A stretch of 64,000 bases of DNA from Agrobacterium albertimagni AOL15. GTDB taxonomy: Bacteria > Pseudomonadota > Alphaproteobacteria > Rhizobiales > Rhizobiaceae. The position numbers and the translations under genes are program-made. Each line of letters begins with the position of its first letter. The first letter of the stretch is position 1. Shown here piece after piece: positions 3,452 through 8,731 of this stretch. Location: the NCBI RefSeq assembly GCF_000300855.1, contig NZ_ALJF01000010.1, forward strand, positions 62,001 to 126,000. Direction: 5' to 3'. Below the pieces are notes generated by a model. It was not told the origin of the DNA and ran no database searches. It saw only the letters and a list, made by a program, of their open reading frames with translations.

Positions 3452-3612
3452 TTTACACCGCACTGCAAAAGACGGCCAGAAAATTCGATAAAACAACGGG
3501 ATGAAAGAGGTTAGGCTGTCTTGTCTTTGACAGAAGTCCCGTGTAAATTTGTAAAAATAGTCAATGCGCCGGCGCGAGCCTGGCCCGTCTAATCTTGTAA
3601 AGGAGCTGTAAA
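3452..3612. promoter_or_regulatory. aceA/scfR divergent control region with TGTAAA repeats
   Basis: TGTAAA occurs on the plus strand at 3542-3547, 3550-3555, 3596-3601 and 3607-3612, and once on the minus strand (TTTACA, 3452-3457) next to a TGCAAA at 3464-3469. A good promoter for scfR is visible: TTGACA at 3527-3532, a 17-bp spacer, and a -10 at 3550-3555 that overlaps one repeat. The second pair straddles the scfR ribosome site (AGGAG, 3601-3605). RamB/ScfR-type regulators bind TTTGCAAA-like DNA, so these repeats are probable operators for autoregulation and aceA control; this is inference. Confidence 0.6.
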
Positions 3613-5040
3613 TTGGCAGAGCGCAAGATTTTTGCAGGCCCCCGCGTCCGCCGTATCAGAAACGGCCTTGGTCTCACTCAGACGGCTATGGCCGAGGCGC
3701 TGGAGATCTCGCCCTCCTATCTTAATCTGATTGAGCGCAACCAGCGACCACTCACGGTCCAGCTGCTCTTGAAGCTGGCCTCCGTATACAAGGTCGATCT
3801 CGACGAGTTGCAGGGCGAGGCCGGTGGATCGACGAGCCAGCTGCGCGAGGTCTTTGCCGATCCCTTGCTGTCGGGCGAGCTGCCCGGCGATCAGGAACTG
3901 ATCGAAGTGGCGGAAGCCGCGCCCAATGCCGCGAGCGGCATCGTCAAGCTCTACCGCGCCTATCGTGAGCAGGCGGCCCGGCTTTCCGACCTCGCTGATC
4001 TCCTGGCCAGAGAGGGGCACGAGACCTCTCTGTCGGGCGCCCGCCTGCCGATCGATGAGGTGAGAGAAGTCTTCGAACGCCGGCCCAACTATTTCGCACG
4101 CCTTGATGAAGCCGCCGAGACCTTCCATGCGGGCTTGAGCCTCGCGCCCGGTGATGATCTCGCCGTAGCCCTCAAGGCCTGGCTGCGTTCCACCCATGGC
4201 ATCGTGGTTCGCGCCTTGCCGGTCCAGACCATGCCGTCGCTGCGCCGCCGATACGACCGCCATTCCATGCGTCTCTTCCTCTCCGAGCGGCTGTCTCCCT
4301 TCGACCAGTTGCGCGAAGTGGCGATGGAGGTCGTGCTGCTGGCGCTGAGCGACCTTGTTCAGGCGGAGCTCGATGCGCTGGAGCTGTCTTCCGGTGAGGC
4401 GCGCCGCATTGCTCGCTTCGAACTCGCCCGTTACACAGCCCATGCGCTGATGATGCCCTACGGCGCCTTCCTCTCGGCCGCGATCCGCGCCCGCTACGAC
4501 ATCGACGTGCTGCGCGCGCGTTTCAATGTCTCCTTCGAGCAGGCCGCCAACCGCCTGACCATGCTGCAGCGCCCGGGCGCGACAGGGGTGCCCTTCTTCA
4601 TGATGGAGATCGACAATGCCGGAAACCGCTTCCGCCGCGCCGGTGCGACAGGCTTCCCGCAGGCGAAATTCGGCGGTGGCTGTCCGAAGCTCAATGTCCA
4701 CGCTGCCTTTGCCCAGCCGGGCCAGGTCCTGGTCGAGCAGGTGGAAATGCCGGATGGCAGCGGCTTCGTGACAATTTCGCGGACCCTCGAAGGTCCGCAG
4801 GCCGGTTTCGGCGAGCGTATAAGGCGCACGGCACTCCTGGTCGGCTGTGACGCCGCAAGCCGCGACGAGGTGGCCTATGCCGCGGCCTTGCCTGATCGAT
4901 CGCAGCCGGCAATCGCCATCGGCCCGGCCTGTCGGCTCTGCGAAAGGTCGGGCTGTCTGGCGCGCGCCGAGCCGCCGCTCACCCGTCCGCTCGGTCTTGA
5001 TGAGATGGTCACGGGGCTGTCGGCCTTTGACTTTCAATAG
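3613..5040 (+). CDS. ScfR/RamB-type XRE regulator of acetate or short-chain acyl metabolism
   Basis: A 475-aa regulator with an N-terminal XRE helix-turn-helix (residues ~8-65, RRIRNGLGLTQTAMAEALE), a central region related to ImmA/IrrE (M78) proteins but without an intact HExxH zinc motif (FELARYTAHALMMPY), and a C-terminal domain with a Cys cluster (CRLCERSGC). These features define the short-chain acyl-CoA responsive regulators found beside glyoxylate-shunt and propionyl-CoA genes. The TTG start at 3613 is chosen because AGGAG lies 7 nt upstream. The last ~26 codons and the stop codon are part of a duplicated segment (see 4962-5040): the present 3' end appears to have been supplied by the inserted P63C element. 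Confidence 0.85.
   Translation: MAERKIFAGPRVRRIRNGLGLTQTAMAEALEISPSYLNLIERNQRPLTVQLLLKLASVYKVDLDELQGEAGGSTSQLREVFADPLLSGELPGDQELIEVAEAAPNAASGIVKLYRAYREQAARLSDLADLLAREGHETSLSGARLPIDEVREVFERRPNYFARLDEAAETFHAGLSLAPGDDLAVALKAWLRSTHGIVVRALPVQTMPSLRRRYDRHSMRLFLSERLSPFDQLREVAMEVVLLALSDLVQAELDALELSSGEARRIARFELARYTAHALMMPYGAFLSAAIRARYDIDVLRARFNVSFEQAANRLTMLQRPGATGVPFFMMEIDNAGNRFRRAGATGFPQAKFGGGCPKLNVHAAFAQPGQVLVEQVEMPDGSGFVTISRTLEGPQAGFGERIRRTALLVGCDAASRDEVAYAAALPDRSQPAIAIGPACRLCERSGCLARAEPPLTRPLGLDEMVTGLSAFDFQ
4962..5040 (+). repeat. Left copy of the scfR tail (attL-like), in use
   Basis: This copy encodes the last 25 residues and the TAG stop of scfR. Relative to 6176-6254 it is identical over the first 57 bp except for one C/T. 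The remaining 22 bp carry only synonymous changes plus TAG for TGA. Sequence to the left is native scfR, so the part to the right of the shared block is inferred to have come with the element. Confidence 0.85.
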
Positions 5041-5045
5041 GGCGA

Positions 5046-6092
5046 TTATCTGCGAACTGGTGGCATCGGTAGTGGCAGCGAAAACTGCACCATGGTTCGT
5101 CCGTAGTGTTGGGCGACTTTCTCTCTTAAGTCCCTAATGTTGTCGCAAGTTTTGGCCATTCCGATAACCTCATAGCACCTCGATACCAGTGCCCGCACTC
5201 CCAAGTTTTCAGTTAATTGTCTGTGCCAGCGAATCCCGGCGGGAGGCTTATTGTTTTTTAGATACTCAGCCACATCTGGGTCGAGTGTGTCGTAGATCAT
5301 TTCGATGACCAGCTTACCCCACCATTTAGGGCGACTATTCAAGGAACCTTTCCAGCCTGTAAGTCGTCCAAACTCACTCCAAAGTTCATCCGGAAACGTT
5401 TTCTCCCACGCGCGTAATTCATCTGCGATGAATGCGCGTAGCTTTACTTGAAGGGCGTCCTCCGCTCTTTCGTACTGGTACCCGGTGGCTTCGTCGATCA
5501 GCGCCTCCAAGCCCAGCTTCGCGCATGCAGAGAGGAACATGCTGGCCTTTATGGCCATTTGCTTTTGGCGGTCGGTCATTGGGGGAAAGGGGGAATCCGG
5601 ATCCATCGAGGCCTGCAGTGCGGCTACAAATCCTTGGCACACCTCGATCATGAGATCCGCTGGTAGTCCCTTAACCGCTTTCTCGAGCCCTTCAACCTCT
5701 AGGAGGCGGAAGGGAACCATTCTGCTCGAGACTAGGGAAGGGCTTATGAATGGCTCTAGTGCTTTAACCCCTAGGTATTTTTCTAGCGCTCCACCTCCTT
5801 TGATTCCTGTAAGCAGCTCAGTTGCGGAGGTTCGGCCAATGATCTTTTCTCCATTGTCTAGAACGTAACATGGAACTTCGAGGCCAATGATGTTTAGGCT
5901 GCCTCGCCATCTGGCGATTGGCATCGCTGCCTCAGGTGGTAGAAGATCCTCGTCGTCTATGCTTAAGGGTGAGATTGTCTTGCTCCAGCGGGCTTCTGCG
6001 GCCTTCTTTGCGCTGAGTGCTCTTTCCTCTTTCGTCATTGCATTTGCTCTGGCGTGACCGCCCTTCGCTCTGCCTTGCTGCTCATCAGCCAT
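5046..6092 (-). CDS. P63C-domain protein carried by the mobile element
   Basis: A 348-aa protein. Residues ~8-36 hold the KGGHARANAMTKEERALSAK...AEARW segment often found at the start of P63C-family proteins, probably a small nucleic-acid-binding unit. The rest matches the family pattern from memory: a pattern like IGLEVPCYVLDNG, then LIDEATGYQYERAEDAL, FIADELRAWEKTFPDE, RPKWWGKLVIEMIYD and a C-terminal HRQLTENLGVRAL...VIGMAK block. P63C proteins occur in phages and genomic islands; their biochemical role is not established. ATG at 6092 follows GAGGAA and is preferred to the longer frame, which would read back through the palindrome and the right repeat. Codon use and GC differ from the host, a sign of transfer. 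Confidence 0.85.
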   Translation of the reverse strand: MADEQQGRAKGGHARANAMTKEERALSAKKAAEARWSKTISPLSIDDEDLLPPEAAMPIARWRGSLNIIGLEVPCYVLDNGEKIIGRTSATELLTGIKGGGALEKYLGVKALEPFISPSLVSSRMVPFRLLEVEGLEKAVKGLPADLMIEVCQGFVAALQASMDPDSPFPPMTDRQKQMAIKASMFLSACAKLGLEALIDEATGYQYERAEDALQVKLRAFIADELRAWEKTFPDELWSEFGRLTGWKGSLNSRPKWWGKLVIEMIYDTLDPDVAEYLKNNKPPAGIRWHRQLTENLGVRALVSRCYEVIGMAKTCDNIRDLREKVAQHYGRTMVQFSLPLPMPPVRR

Positions 6093-6109
6093 GGAAAGTT
6101 CCTCTGTTG

Positions 6110-6167
6110 TTTGCACGCATAGTTGCTCATTTTTGCACGCATGACAATGGCATGCGTGCAAAAATGA
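6110..6167. promoter_or_regulatory. Subterminal palindrome and TTTGCACGCAT repeats
   Basis: Perfect 17-bp inverted arms at 6127-6143 and 6151-6167 flank a 7-nt spacer; the arm core is TTTTTGCACGCATG. A third copy of TTTGCACGCAT lies at 6110-6120. The cluster sits between the P63C start codon (6092) and the right repeat (6176). It could be an operator for the P63C gene, an arm-type site for a recombinase acting in trans, or a hairpin origin. The sequence alone does not choose. Confidence 0.65.
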
Positions 6168-6175
6168 TTTTTGAT

Positions 6176-6254
6176 GCGCGCCGAGCCGCCGCTCACCCGT
6201 CCGCTTGGTCTTGATGAGATGGTCACGGGGCTCTCTGCCTTCGATTTCCAATGA
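6176..6254 (+). pseudogene. Displaced original 3' end of scfR (attR-like)
   Basis: This orphan fragment encodes R-A-E-P-P-L-T-R-P-L-G-L-D-E-M and on to the stop, exactly the final 25 residues of scfR, but with six synonymous codon changes and TGA in place of TAG. It has no start or upstream body. The simplest reading is that this is the ancestral chromosomal tail, pushed 1.2 kb away when the P63C element entered. It ends 138 bp before potF. Confidence 0.85.
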
Positions 6255-6392
6255 AACTGATACACCCGATAAAGCATTCGCGACTGCGAAGAATTTCGCT
6301 TGTGGCCCGTCCAATTCCTTTCTAGTCTCTTAAAAAATAACGGGAATGGCATAGGGGGCTCTCCGCTCCCCAAGGCTGGAACAGGAGAAAAA

Positions 6393-7493
6393 ATGAAGGC
6401 TCATTTCATTCGTACGGCGTCAGTGGCCCTGGCGACGATCTTCATCGCATCGGCTGTCCAGGCGCAGGAACGCGTCGTCAACGTCTACAATTGGTCCGAC
6501 TATATCGACGAGTCCGTCCTTGCCGATTTCACCAAGGAAACCGGCATCAAGGTTGTCTACGACGTTTTCGATTCCAACGAACTGCTCGAGACCAAGCTGC
6601 TCGCCGGCGGCTCCGGTTACGATGTCGTCGTCCCGACGGCGCCGTTCCTGGCGCGCCAGATCCAGGCCGGCGTCTTCCAGAAGCTCGACAAGTCCAAGCT
6701 TACCAACCTGCAAAACCTCTGGCCGATGGTCTCCGAGCGCCTCGCAAAATACGACCCCGGCAACGAATATGCCGTCAACTACATGTGGGGCACGACGGGC
6801 ATCGGTTACAATGTCGCCAAGGTCAAGGAAGCGCTCGGCGCCGACTTCACCGTCGACAGCTGGGATGCGATCTTCAAGCCGGAGAATGCCGAGAAGCTGA
6901 AGTCCTGCGGCGTCAACATCCTCGACGCGTCGGATGAGACCTTCGCGATCGCGATGAACTACATCGGCAAGGACCCGGACAGCAAGGAATCGGCTGACCT
7001 CGAGGCCGGCGGCGAAGTCTATATGAATATCCGCCCCTCGGTCCGCACCTTCAATTCCTCCGCCTATATCGATGACCTGGCGAATGGCGACATCTGCATG
7101 ACCATCGGCTGGTCGGGCGATATCCTCCAGGCGAAGGCCCGTGCGGAGGAGGCCAATAACGGTGTCGAGATCAACTACGTGATCCCGAAGGAAGGCACCT
7201 ACATGTGGTTCGACAACATGGCGATCCCGGCAGATGCCAAGAACGTCGCCGAGGCGCATGAATTCATCAACTTCCTGATGCGTCCCGACGTGATCGCCAA
7301 GGCCTCCAATTACGTCCAGTATGCCAATGGCAACCTGGCTTCGAAGGAGTTGCTCGATCCTGAGGTCAAGGACAATCCGGCCGTCTATCCGCCGGAAGAG
7401 GTCATGGCCAAGCTCTTCACGATTTCGCCTTACGGGCCGCGTGAACAACGCGTGCTGAACCGGGTCTGGACACAGATCAAGACCGGTCGCTGA
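6393..7493 (+). CDS. potF: Putrescine-binding periplasmic protein
   Basis: A 366-aa substrate-binding protein with a clear signal peptide (residues 1-24, ending AVQAQE). The mature start (RVVNVYNWSDYIDE), followed by GIKVVYDVFDSNELLETKLLAGGSGYDVVVP, is the PotF/PotD pattern of spermidine/putrescine-binding proteins, closest to PotF. ATG at 6393 follows AGGAG at 6383-6387; the longer frame to 6300 has no such support. It heads a four-gene operon with an ATPase and two permeases, and a GC-rich hairpin follows it, which commonly keeps the binding protein more abundant than the membrane parts. It would feed the putrescine breakdown genes at 35308-38855. Confidence 0.93.
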   Translation: MKAHFIRTASVALATIFIASAVQAQERVVNVYNWSDYIDESVLADFTKETGIKVVYDVFDSNELLETKLLAGGSGYDVVVPTAPFLARQIQAGVFQKLDKSKLTNLQNLWPMVSERLAKYDPGNEYAVNYMWGTTGIGYNVAKVKEALGADFTVDSWDAIFKPENAEKLKSCGVNILDASDETFAIAMNYIGKDPDSKESADLEAGGEVYMNIRPSVRTFNSSAYIDDLANGDICMTIGWSGDILQAKARAEEANNGVEINYVIPKEGTYMWFDNMAIPADAKNVAEAHEFINFLMRPDVIAKASNYVQYANGNLASKELLDPEVKDNPAVYPPEEVMAKLFTISPYGPREQRVLNRVWTQIKTGR

Positions 7494-7502
7494 TGAAAGA
7501 CC

Positions 7503-7533
7503 ATTCGCCGGGCGCCGCAAACGCCCGGCGAAT
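7503..7533 (+). other. Intra-operon hairpin between potF and potG
   Basis: A perfect 12-bp stem (ATTCGCCGGGCG and its complement) encloses a 7-nt loop, 9 bp past the potF stop. There is no T run behind it. Such structures after binding-protein genes usually protect the upstream mRNA from 3' decay or partly attenuate readthrough. Confidence 0.7.
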
Positions 7534-7576
7534 TGCTTAGGTGTAGGGGCAACAAGCAGACGGCTGGGATCGGGTA

Positions 7577-8731
7577 ATGGCGAAGACACTGGGGCCTGTT
7601 AAGCGTAAATTTTCTCCTTGGACCGATCCGGATGCCGTTCCATTCATCCGCTTCGAAAACGTCACGAAGCGCTTCGGCGATTTCGTCGCCGTCGATGATC
7701 TCAGCCTCGATATCTACGAGCGCGAATTCTTCTCGCTTCTTGGCCCGTCCGGCTGCGGCAAGACCACGCTGATGCGCATGCTGGCCGGCTTCGAAGAGCC
7801 GACCTCCGGTCGCATCCTCCTGCAGGGACAGGACCTGTCAGGCGTGCCGCCCTACAAGCGCCCGACCAACATGATGTTCCAGTCCTACGCGCTCTTCCCG
7901 CATATGTCGGTGGAAAAGAACATCGCCTTCGGTCTGGAACAGGACAATCTGGCAAGGGGCGAGATCGACGCGCGCGTCCAAGAAATGCTGAAGCTGGTCA
8001 AGCTCGAACAGTTTGCCAAGCGCAAGCCCAACCAGCTCTCCGGTGGTCAGCGCCAGCGTGTGGCACTCGCGCGCTCGCTCGCCAAGCGTCCGAAGGTCCT
8101 GCTGCTCGACGAACCGCTCGGCGCTCTGGATCGCAAGCTGCGCGAAGAAACCCAGTTCGAGCTCATGGACATTCAGACCAAGCTCGGCCTCACCTTTCTG
8201 ATCGTCACCCACGACCAGGAAGAGGCGATGACCGTCTCGGACCGCATCGCGGTCATGGACAAGGGCATTCTCGTCCAGGTCGCCACACCGGCGGAAATCT
8301 ACGAGGCCCCAAATTCGCGTTACGTCGCCGACTTCATCGGCGACATCAACATTCTCGAAGCCCGGGTCGAGGCCAAGGAGAGCCAGGGGAGCGAAGACCT
8401 TGTCCGCATCGACAGCGATGGCGTGAAAATTACCGTCGAGCAGACTTGTGAGGCGAACAAGGGCGACGCCGTCGCCTTTGCCATCCGACCCGAAAAGGTG
8501 CGCATCTCCACCACCCAGCCGGAAGGTGCGGTGGCAAATGCTTTGCATGGCGAGGTCTGGGACATCGGCTATCTCGGCGACTTCTCGGTCTTCATCGTCC
8601 GTCTCGACGATGGCCGTATGTTCCGCGCTGCCCAGGCCAATGTCGCGCGCCTCGTCGATCGCCCGATCACCTTCGGTGACATGGTCTGGCTGTCCTGGTC
8701 GGCCGATGCCGGCCTTGTCCTGACACGCTGA
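7577..8731 (+). CDS. potG: Putrescine ABC transporter ATP-binding protein
   Basis: A 384-aa ATPase with Walker A GPSGCGKTT near residue 57, Q-loop in MMFQSYALFP, signature LSGGQRQRVALARSL, Walker B VLLLDEPLGALD and switch His in IVTHDQEEAMT. The C-terminal ~110 residues form the TOBE regulatory domain seen in PotA/PotG/MalK-type ATPases. It lies third-party close to potF and potHI in one operon, so it energises putrescine import. The N-terminus carries an unremarkable ~20-residue extension before the ATPase core. Confidence 0.93.
   Translation: MAKTLGPVKRKFSPWTDPDAVPFIRFENVTKRFGDFVAVDDLSLDIYEREFFSLLGPSGCGKTTLMRMLAGFEEPTSGRILLQGQDLSGVPPYKRPTNMMFQSYALFPHMSVEKNIAFGLEQDNLARGEIDARVQEMLKLVKLEQFAKRKPNQLSGGQRQRVALARSLAKRPKVLLLDEPLGALDRKLREETQFELMDIQTKLGLTFLIVTHDQEEAMTVSDRIAVMDKGILVQVATPAEIYEAPNSRYVADFIGDINILEARVEAKESQGSEDLVRIDSDGVKITVEQTCEANKGDAVAFAIRPEKVRISTTQPEGAVANALHGEVWDIGYLGDFSVFIVRLDDGRMFRAAQANVARLVDRPITFGDMVWLSWSADAGLVLTR

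Follow-up and report, generated by a model that had tools for sequence, protein, structure and literature searches.

We analysed a window of 64,000 nucleotides of the Agrobacterium albertimagni AOL15 genome (contig NZ_ALJF01000010.1, positions 62,001 to 126,000), and all positions given for the scfR locus are those of the window. A 1,214-bp insert flanked by direct repeats lies inside the 3' end of its scfR gene. This foreign-looking insert holds a single gene, is absent from this place in 62 congeners and restores the scfR reading frame. The features of the locus are the following.

3613..5040, plus strand: scfR-type regulator gene with HTH, IrrE/M78-like and ScfRs C-terminal domains (Pfam ScfRs, E 1.8e-52)
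4962..5038, plus strand: upstream tail copy, attL-like, native-like to about 5018 and divergent at its distal end
5046..6092, minus strand: P63C gene, 348 codons
6112..6120, no strand: third predicted operator half-site, TGCACGCAT, in the DNA that separates the palindrome from the P63C start (3 sites counted upstream)
6127..6167, no strand: near-perfect palindrome of 41 nt, probable P63C-gene operator (predicted), with half-sites TGCACGCAT at 6134-6142 and ATGCGTGCA at 6152-6160
6176..6252, plus strand: downstream tail copy, attR-like; this is the native tail of scfR and runs directly into the native scfR-potF interval
6393..7493, plus strand: potF-like solute-binding protein gene, the first native gene 3' of the insert

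The two tail copies (4962-5038 and 6176-6252) form a direct repeat of 77 nt with 92% identity and a spacing of 1214, the largest direct repeat within positions 3500-8500 of the window. A preliminary description of this DNA had reported a 1,214-bp unit with a one-mismatch repeat of 57 bp; we recovered both, the mismatch being at position 4992 of the initial 57 nt, and found that the repeat extends further, to the 77 nt given above. Both copies are scfR coding sequence, and the scfR frame, for which 3613 is a putative TTG start set mechanically, now ends in the upstream copy. Only 5 bp separate the scfR stop (5038-5040) from the P63C stop (5046-5048), and 8 bp separate the palindrome from the second repeat.

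The GC content of the insert is 0.52, compared with 0.62 for the window, and the GC3 of the P63C frame (0.55) is the lowest among 44 non-overlapping ORFs of at least 200 aa chosen mechanically in the window (median 0.76), which agrees with the foreign composition and non-host codon use described earlier. Among the listed ORFs of at least 80 aa, P63C is the sole plausible gene within the insert, so that its description as one 348-codon P63C gene accompanied by a palindrome holds. The protein matches Pfam PF10546 (E 1.8e-23; 83.4 bits for a curated cut-off of 26.1), and its residues 1-341 match phrog_2384, a phage family without known function (E 3.2e-84). As had been said of the insert, no recombinase was recognisable in its ORF list, and a transposase gene was absent from that list as well. 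A search of the genome with the tyrosine-integrase profile PF00589 gave ten matches, none of them on the contig of the insert. PADLOC returned no match and holds no model for this P63C protein.

Looking at the relatives, we found a scfR match in all 62 congeners searched. The empty site predicted in the preliminary description was present in 55 of them, with 195-339 bp from the end of the scfR match to the potF reference point; the same distance in A. albertimagni is 216 bp without the insert and 1,430 bp with it. The scfR-potF interval of the other seven contained other DNA. No P63C gene was present in this interval in any of the 62 congeners and no second scfR tail was recognised there; the tail part of the query matched twice in the A. 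albertimagni genome only, with the caveat that this query could miss a second tail if it were short and the congener distant. The possibility that relatives all share the two-tail arrangement, raised in the preliminary description, is therefore not the case (0/62). Among the congeners, seven (L164, L165, L166, L169, L170, L171 and L175) had 1.1-1.3 kb of extra scfR-potF DNA: in L165, L166, L170, L171 and L175 it holds an ORF of 327-329 aa unrelated to P63C, in L164 this ORF is broken, and in L169 the ORF picker took the opposite strand.

Leaving the A. albertimagni genome aside, PF10546 was found genome-wide in 0 of 23 congeners and 0 of 16 genomes of the order, and a P63C homologue at E ≤1e-20 was found in 16/393 other genomes of the family and 18/396 others from the order. 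We then considered which of the two tails is the native one. The match to the downstream copy continued past the tail in 27 of the 29 closest loci, for at least 222 bp (best 94.7% over 285 bp), the alignment covering the tail only in L027 and L031. Since the downstream copy is contiguous with the native flank in relatives, the downstream tail (6176 on) is native, as had been proposed, and the upstream end is new. When 394 genomes of the family were scanned for tails, four including A. albertimagni gave two tail matches; for one of the other three (G371) one contig was opened, and it showed one tail. No phage or autonomous element with a scfR attP was found with two exact patterns in viral contigs and blastn in phages.

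Both tails encode an identical protein end (...LSAFDFQ), in agreement with the claim that the insert supplies a restored scfR tail. The six coding differences between them are all at third positions and all synonymous, meaning that the new tail has remained a coding sequence. Their distribution is uneven, since five of the six fall in the last 20 of the 77 nt (P 0.004). Within the last 60 coding nucleotides, the tails agree at 39 of the proximal 40, for which either copy compared with any of the 62 congeners reaches 37 at best and about 31 on average. Over the distal 23 nt (20 coding plus the stop) they agree at 16, the mean for the congeners compared with the native copy being 18.5. A mosaic tail of this kind would not arise from a foreign attP through conservative integration by itself. 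Because the proximal tails are closer to each other than to any congener and the distal end is divergent, a further step is needed, either homologous exchange near 5018 or gene conversion involving the two repeats.

This mosaic is what would be expected if RecA alone had acted, DNA from a two-tailed strain carrying P63C having been exchanged through scfR homology with crossovers at about 5018 on the left and about 6176 on the right. Gene conversion between the repeats at a later time would yield the same mosaic, however, and import by RecA only shifts the question to the donor, whereas no two-tailed donor is found among the 62 congeners. We thus regard RecA import on its own as rather unlikely.

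We then studied the places that P63C genes occupy elsewhere. The scan covered 78 P63C loci, that of A. albertimagni included, and included a few that duplicate each other, and direct repeats were sought up to 6 kb on each side. Eleven of the 78 loci lie in units that a script identified by GGTAGTGTCTCAGTTTGAA-type repeats at their ends together with target duplications of 8 bp or more (L032, L036, L053, L143, L200, L201, L218-L221 and L223; for instance L032 8945-11596, L036 8978-11385, L053 9228-11299, L200 4989-7627 and L219 4005-7653). Their transposases are IS1-like and distant: out of five tested with Pfam DDE_Tnp_IS1, those of L032 and L221 were above the cut-off and three below, and the NCBIfam IS1 model gave E-values of 6e-16 to 4e-20 in three transposases, all under its cut-off. 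The remaining IS1-like transposases were recognised by eye, that of L053 being in pieces. A second type of unit has IS1595-type repeats with duplications (L042, L044, L047 and L214) or the repeats only (L045), and the transposases of L042, L044, L045 and L048 are well above the DDE_Tnp_IS1595 cut-off (L042 8886-10880; L044 2976-4965; L045 8837-10915; L048 9070-10924). In L042, L044, L045, L047, L048 and L214 there is an 8-bp overlap of transposase gene and P63C gene, P63C being the downstream one in L042, L044, L045 and L048.

Like the scfR insert, these insertion sequences (L032, L036, L042, L044 and others) are compact elements carrying P63C, and the IS1-like type shares with it half-sites upstream of P63C. 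They differ from it by their TIRs, by their transposase and by target duplications that measure about 8 bp. That the scfR repeat is an insertion-sequence scar, or an ordinary local duplication, could be suggested by the fact that relatives of the insert's P63C occupy insertion sequences (82% for L032). The terminal inverted repeats of both P63C types are nevertheless absent from the window, for which the script reported no TIR pair, the target duplications of P63C insertion sequences have about 8 bp instead of 77, and in the distal tail the copies disagree at 5 of 20 nt, always synonymously. No terminal-repeat remnant was seen at 5041 or 6175. The scar was thus rejected, and this explanation in either form is highly improbable.

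P63C genes are also carried by phages and plasmids: tblastn searches of 50,697 phage records and 72,556 plasmid records detected them in 45 and 14, respectively. In 4 of 14 regions opened (L230, L235, L242 and L243), P63C is directly 3' of a CI-type or immunity repressor; these regions are those of Gordonia Kuwabara, Salmonella SPLA1b, a prophage-like region of an E. coli plasmid and Erwinia Midgardsormr38. The gene preceding P63C is annotated as an immunity repressor in Kuwabara and as hypothetical in SPLA1b, where Pfam identifies an HTH and an S24 peptidase. In plasmids, an Abi-family gene lies two genes off in two cases, and a restriction endonuclease gene adjoins P63C in one, a DNA methyltransferase gene being a neighbour in another and a DUF3883 gene in a third. 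The remaining five of the 14 regions show mixed neighbours (integrase, RecT, tail or hypothetical genes). In lysogens, exclusion genes are expressed from the position next to the repressor, and these positions offer a lead, which we hold tentatively, towards an immunity role of P63C. P63C is a cargo recurring in small mobile elements, namely two insertion-sequence types, temperate phages, plasmids and an insert at tRNA-Pro.

This last insert is the only other one of its kind, as gene-end repeats bracket only 2 of the 78 P63C loci, the scfR insert and L038. In L038 (9714-12953), from Bradyrhizobium, the 3' end of a tRNA-Pro is repeated exactly, over 47 bp, and brackets 3,193 bp that contain P63C, DUF3800 and XRE genes, with half-sites upstream of P63C and no recognised integrase. 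In L182, L185 and L187, 3 of 19 relative loci, part of the left flank is situated about 50-650 bp away from the tRNA, which leaves no space for the insert; in the remaining 16 the left flank was unaligned. The L038 island thus resembles the scfR insert in being integrase-less and repeat-bracketed with upstream half-sites, and differs from it by its size (3.2 kb), its DUF3800 and XRE genes and its tRNA target. Other direct repeats (L035, L044, L045, L205, L217, L222 and L225) were judged by eye to be dispersed or due to chance. When the lone P63C genes L033, L034 and L035 were compared with relatives, the intervals were variable and no tail duplication was recognised. Five other Bradyrhizobium have one more copy of the repeat at a distance of about 12-57 kb from this tRNA-Pro, and the site therefore looks like an island hotspot.

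The preliminary description had allowed that the P63C protein takes part in recombination, and it is indeed the only plausible protein encoded by the insert. Its homologues, however, are passengers beside IS1-like or IS1595-family transposases in units with terminal repeats and target duplications, or reside in phages possessing their own integrase, and the other repeat-bracketed insert has an unrelated target. Compared with solved recombinases the protein gave no match, the sole hit at E ≤1 being a phage capsid (0.42). We therefore rejected P63C as the recombinase; that it catalyses the insertion itself is very improbable, and it is most likely cargo.

The insert may also be compared with known integrative systems. 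The e14 element and phage 21 integrate in icd, a protein gene whose 3' end is restored. The scfR insert likewise duplicates a gene 3' end and restores the reading frame, and differs by the absence of an integrase and of recognisable phage structural genes. PICI-like phage satellites carry their own integrase plus replication or packaging-interference genes, whereas the scfR insert holds a single plausible gene. CIMEs, as defined in PMC5704250, have lost integration and transfer genes and kept attL and attR. The insert is similar to them: it lies in a gene 3' end, retains att-like repeats, faces an empty site in relatives and has no integrase or transfer genes inside, with no PF00589 match on the contig. 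It departs from them in its size of 1.2 kb, its one gene, its protein-gene target, its mosaic tail and the lack of a known parent ICE or IME. A CIME agrees with the att-like ends, with the restoration of the tail and with the lack of a recombinase, hence the CIME-like reading that we adopt; the insert fits a known kind, and a new satellite class is not proven.

A CIME-like insert could be the immobile remnant of a larger phage or island that lost its integrase and the rest while keeping P63C and the att sites. The presence of P63C in the phage records given above is in favour of this origin, as is the tRNA-Pro case with its distant repeat copies in five other Bradyrhizobium. The insert is, however, unusually tidy for a remnant, with its 5-bp and 8-bp margins and its intact gene and palindrome, and no larger or parent element was found in the scfR-potF interval of the 62 congeners. 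A remnant in this strict sense seems doubtful.

The palindrome had been viewed as part of the mobile machinery. This view was not maintained, as the palindrome corresponds to a motif that is conserved 5' of P63C genes: inverted AGCAT/ATGCT motifs recur upstream of the homologues, and TGC[G/T]TGC was present upstream of 29 of 36 P63C loci whose protein has an N-terminal KGG...ARW segment, compared with 1 of 35 loci lacking it (Fisher 3.7e-12). This comparison is partly post hoc, since the motif was chosen after a first look, and the loci are related. Half-sites were counted up to 200 bp upstream and the segment was scored with an HMM built from 30 database proteins. The table comprises 71 of the 78 loci, two having no usable upstream sequence and five being dropped for near-identical upstream regions. 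The HMM replaced two regexes, which overlooked members visible by eye, when their results were already in hand: the first had given half-sites in 20/23 versus 11/43 loci (p 1.8e-6), and the second, cruder one 8/10 versus 2/4 (p 0.52) in a second set of 14 annotated phage and plasmid loci. With the HMM, this second set gave a half-site in 10 of 12 loci with the segment and 0 of 2 without (p 0.066); it was picked by hand among 44 listed of 59 matching records, and it is not fully independent of the first, as the segment-free L242 shares N-terminal protein sequence with L065.

Seven of the 36 segment-bearing loci have no exact half-site (L034, L035, L037, L142, L202, L207 and L209). In L034, L035 and L037 there are instead long palindromes of related sequence, an alternative start choice gives three half-sites in L202, and L142, L207 and L209 match the N-terminal segment partially. 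In the second set, L230 and L231 bear the segment without an exact half-site. The P63C proteins of the IS1595-type loci L042, L044, L045, L047, L048 and L214 are without the segment. In 9 of 9 IS1-like units whose P63C bears it, the half-sites are found either in the region separating divergently oriented transposase and P63C genes or 5' of a P63C-transposase pair, when mechanical ORF starts that extend too far are allowed for; in these units the transposase may thus be under the control of P63C as well. In L143 (9636-10718) a YdaS/Cro-like helix-turn-helix replaces the KGG...ARW segment at the P63C N-terminus (E 4.2e-7), and no TGC[G/T]TGC-type sites were seen in this insertion-sequence unit.

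As the half-sites track the N-terminal segment across P63C loci, the palindrome is more likely to be the operator of the P63C gene than an end of the element, and the segment probably binds the TGC[G/T]TGC operator, the gene being self-controlled; both proposals come from sequence comparison. A strict operator pattern had no match in the genome itself, the order of its half-sites being opposite to that of the operator in the window, so that this negative carries little weight. A terminator-like reading of the palindrome on the plus strand is possible (4 terminator-like sites found for 2.6 expected).

Altogether, we consider it probable that the scfR locus carries a non-autonomous CIME-like insert, produced by a recombinase from elsewhere and altered by later exchange or conversion, with P63C as self-regulated cargo. 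A site-specific recombinase encoded elsewhere would have formed the insert at scfR, either from a decayed larger element or from a minimal unit used in trans, and homologous exchange or gene conversion would afterwards have left the mosaic upstream tail. The N-terminal segment of P63C would bind the operator just upstream and lead to autoregulation, and the P63C domain at the C-terminus is probably of use to the element that carries it or to the host, perhaps in superinfection immunity. More speculatively, and in our view improbably, the insert would be the smallest vehicle of P63C, a one-gene, tail-restoring satellite moved by the recombinase of another element, with P63C as self-regulated and probably immunity-type cargo.

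With two att-like ends, an operator and a gene, the scfR insert may approach the smallest possible integrative element. Within the literature searched, a one-gene, tail-restoring insert without recombinase and the link between operator and segment appear new. The same search found no papers on P63C function and returned the word P63C partly in unrelated senses; the parts of PMC6536676 and PMC13414232 where it occurs merely name it. The P63C family gains a testable handle in the DNA site predicted for an N-terminal segment and in its recurrent positions after repressors and in insertion sequences. Finally, a near-identical P63C protein of 330 aa (P0002), with two substitutions counted by eye, is encoded on another contig, of 3,226 bp.
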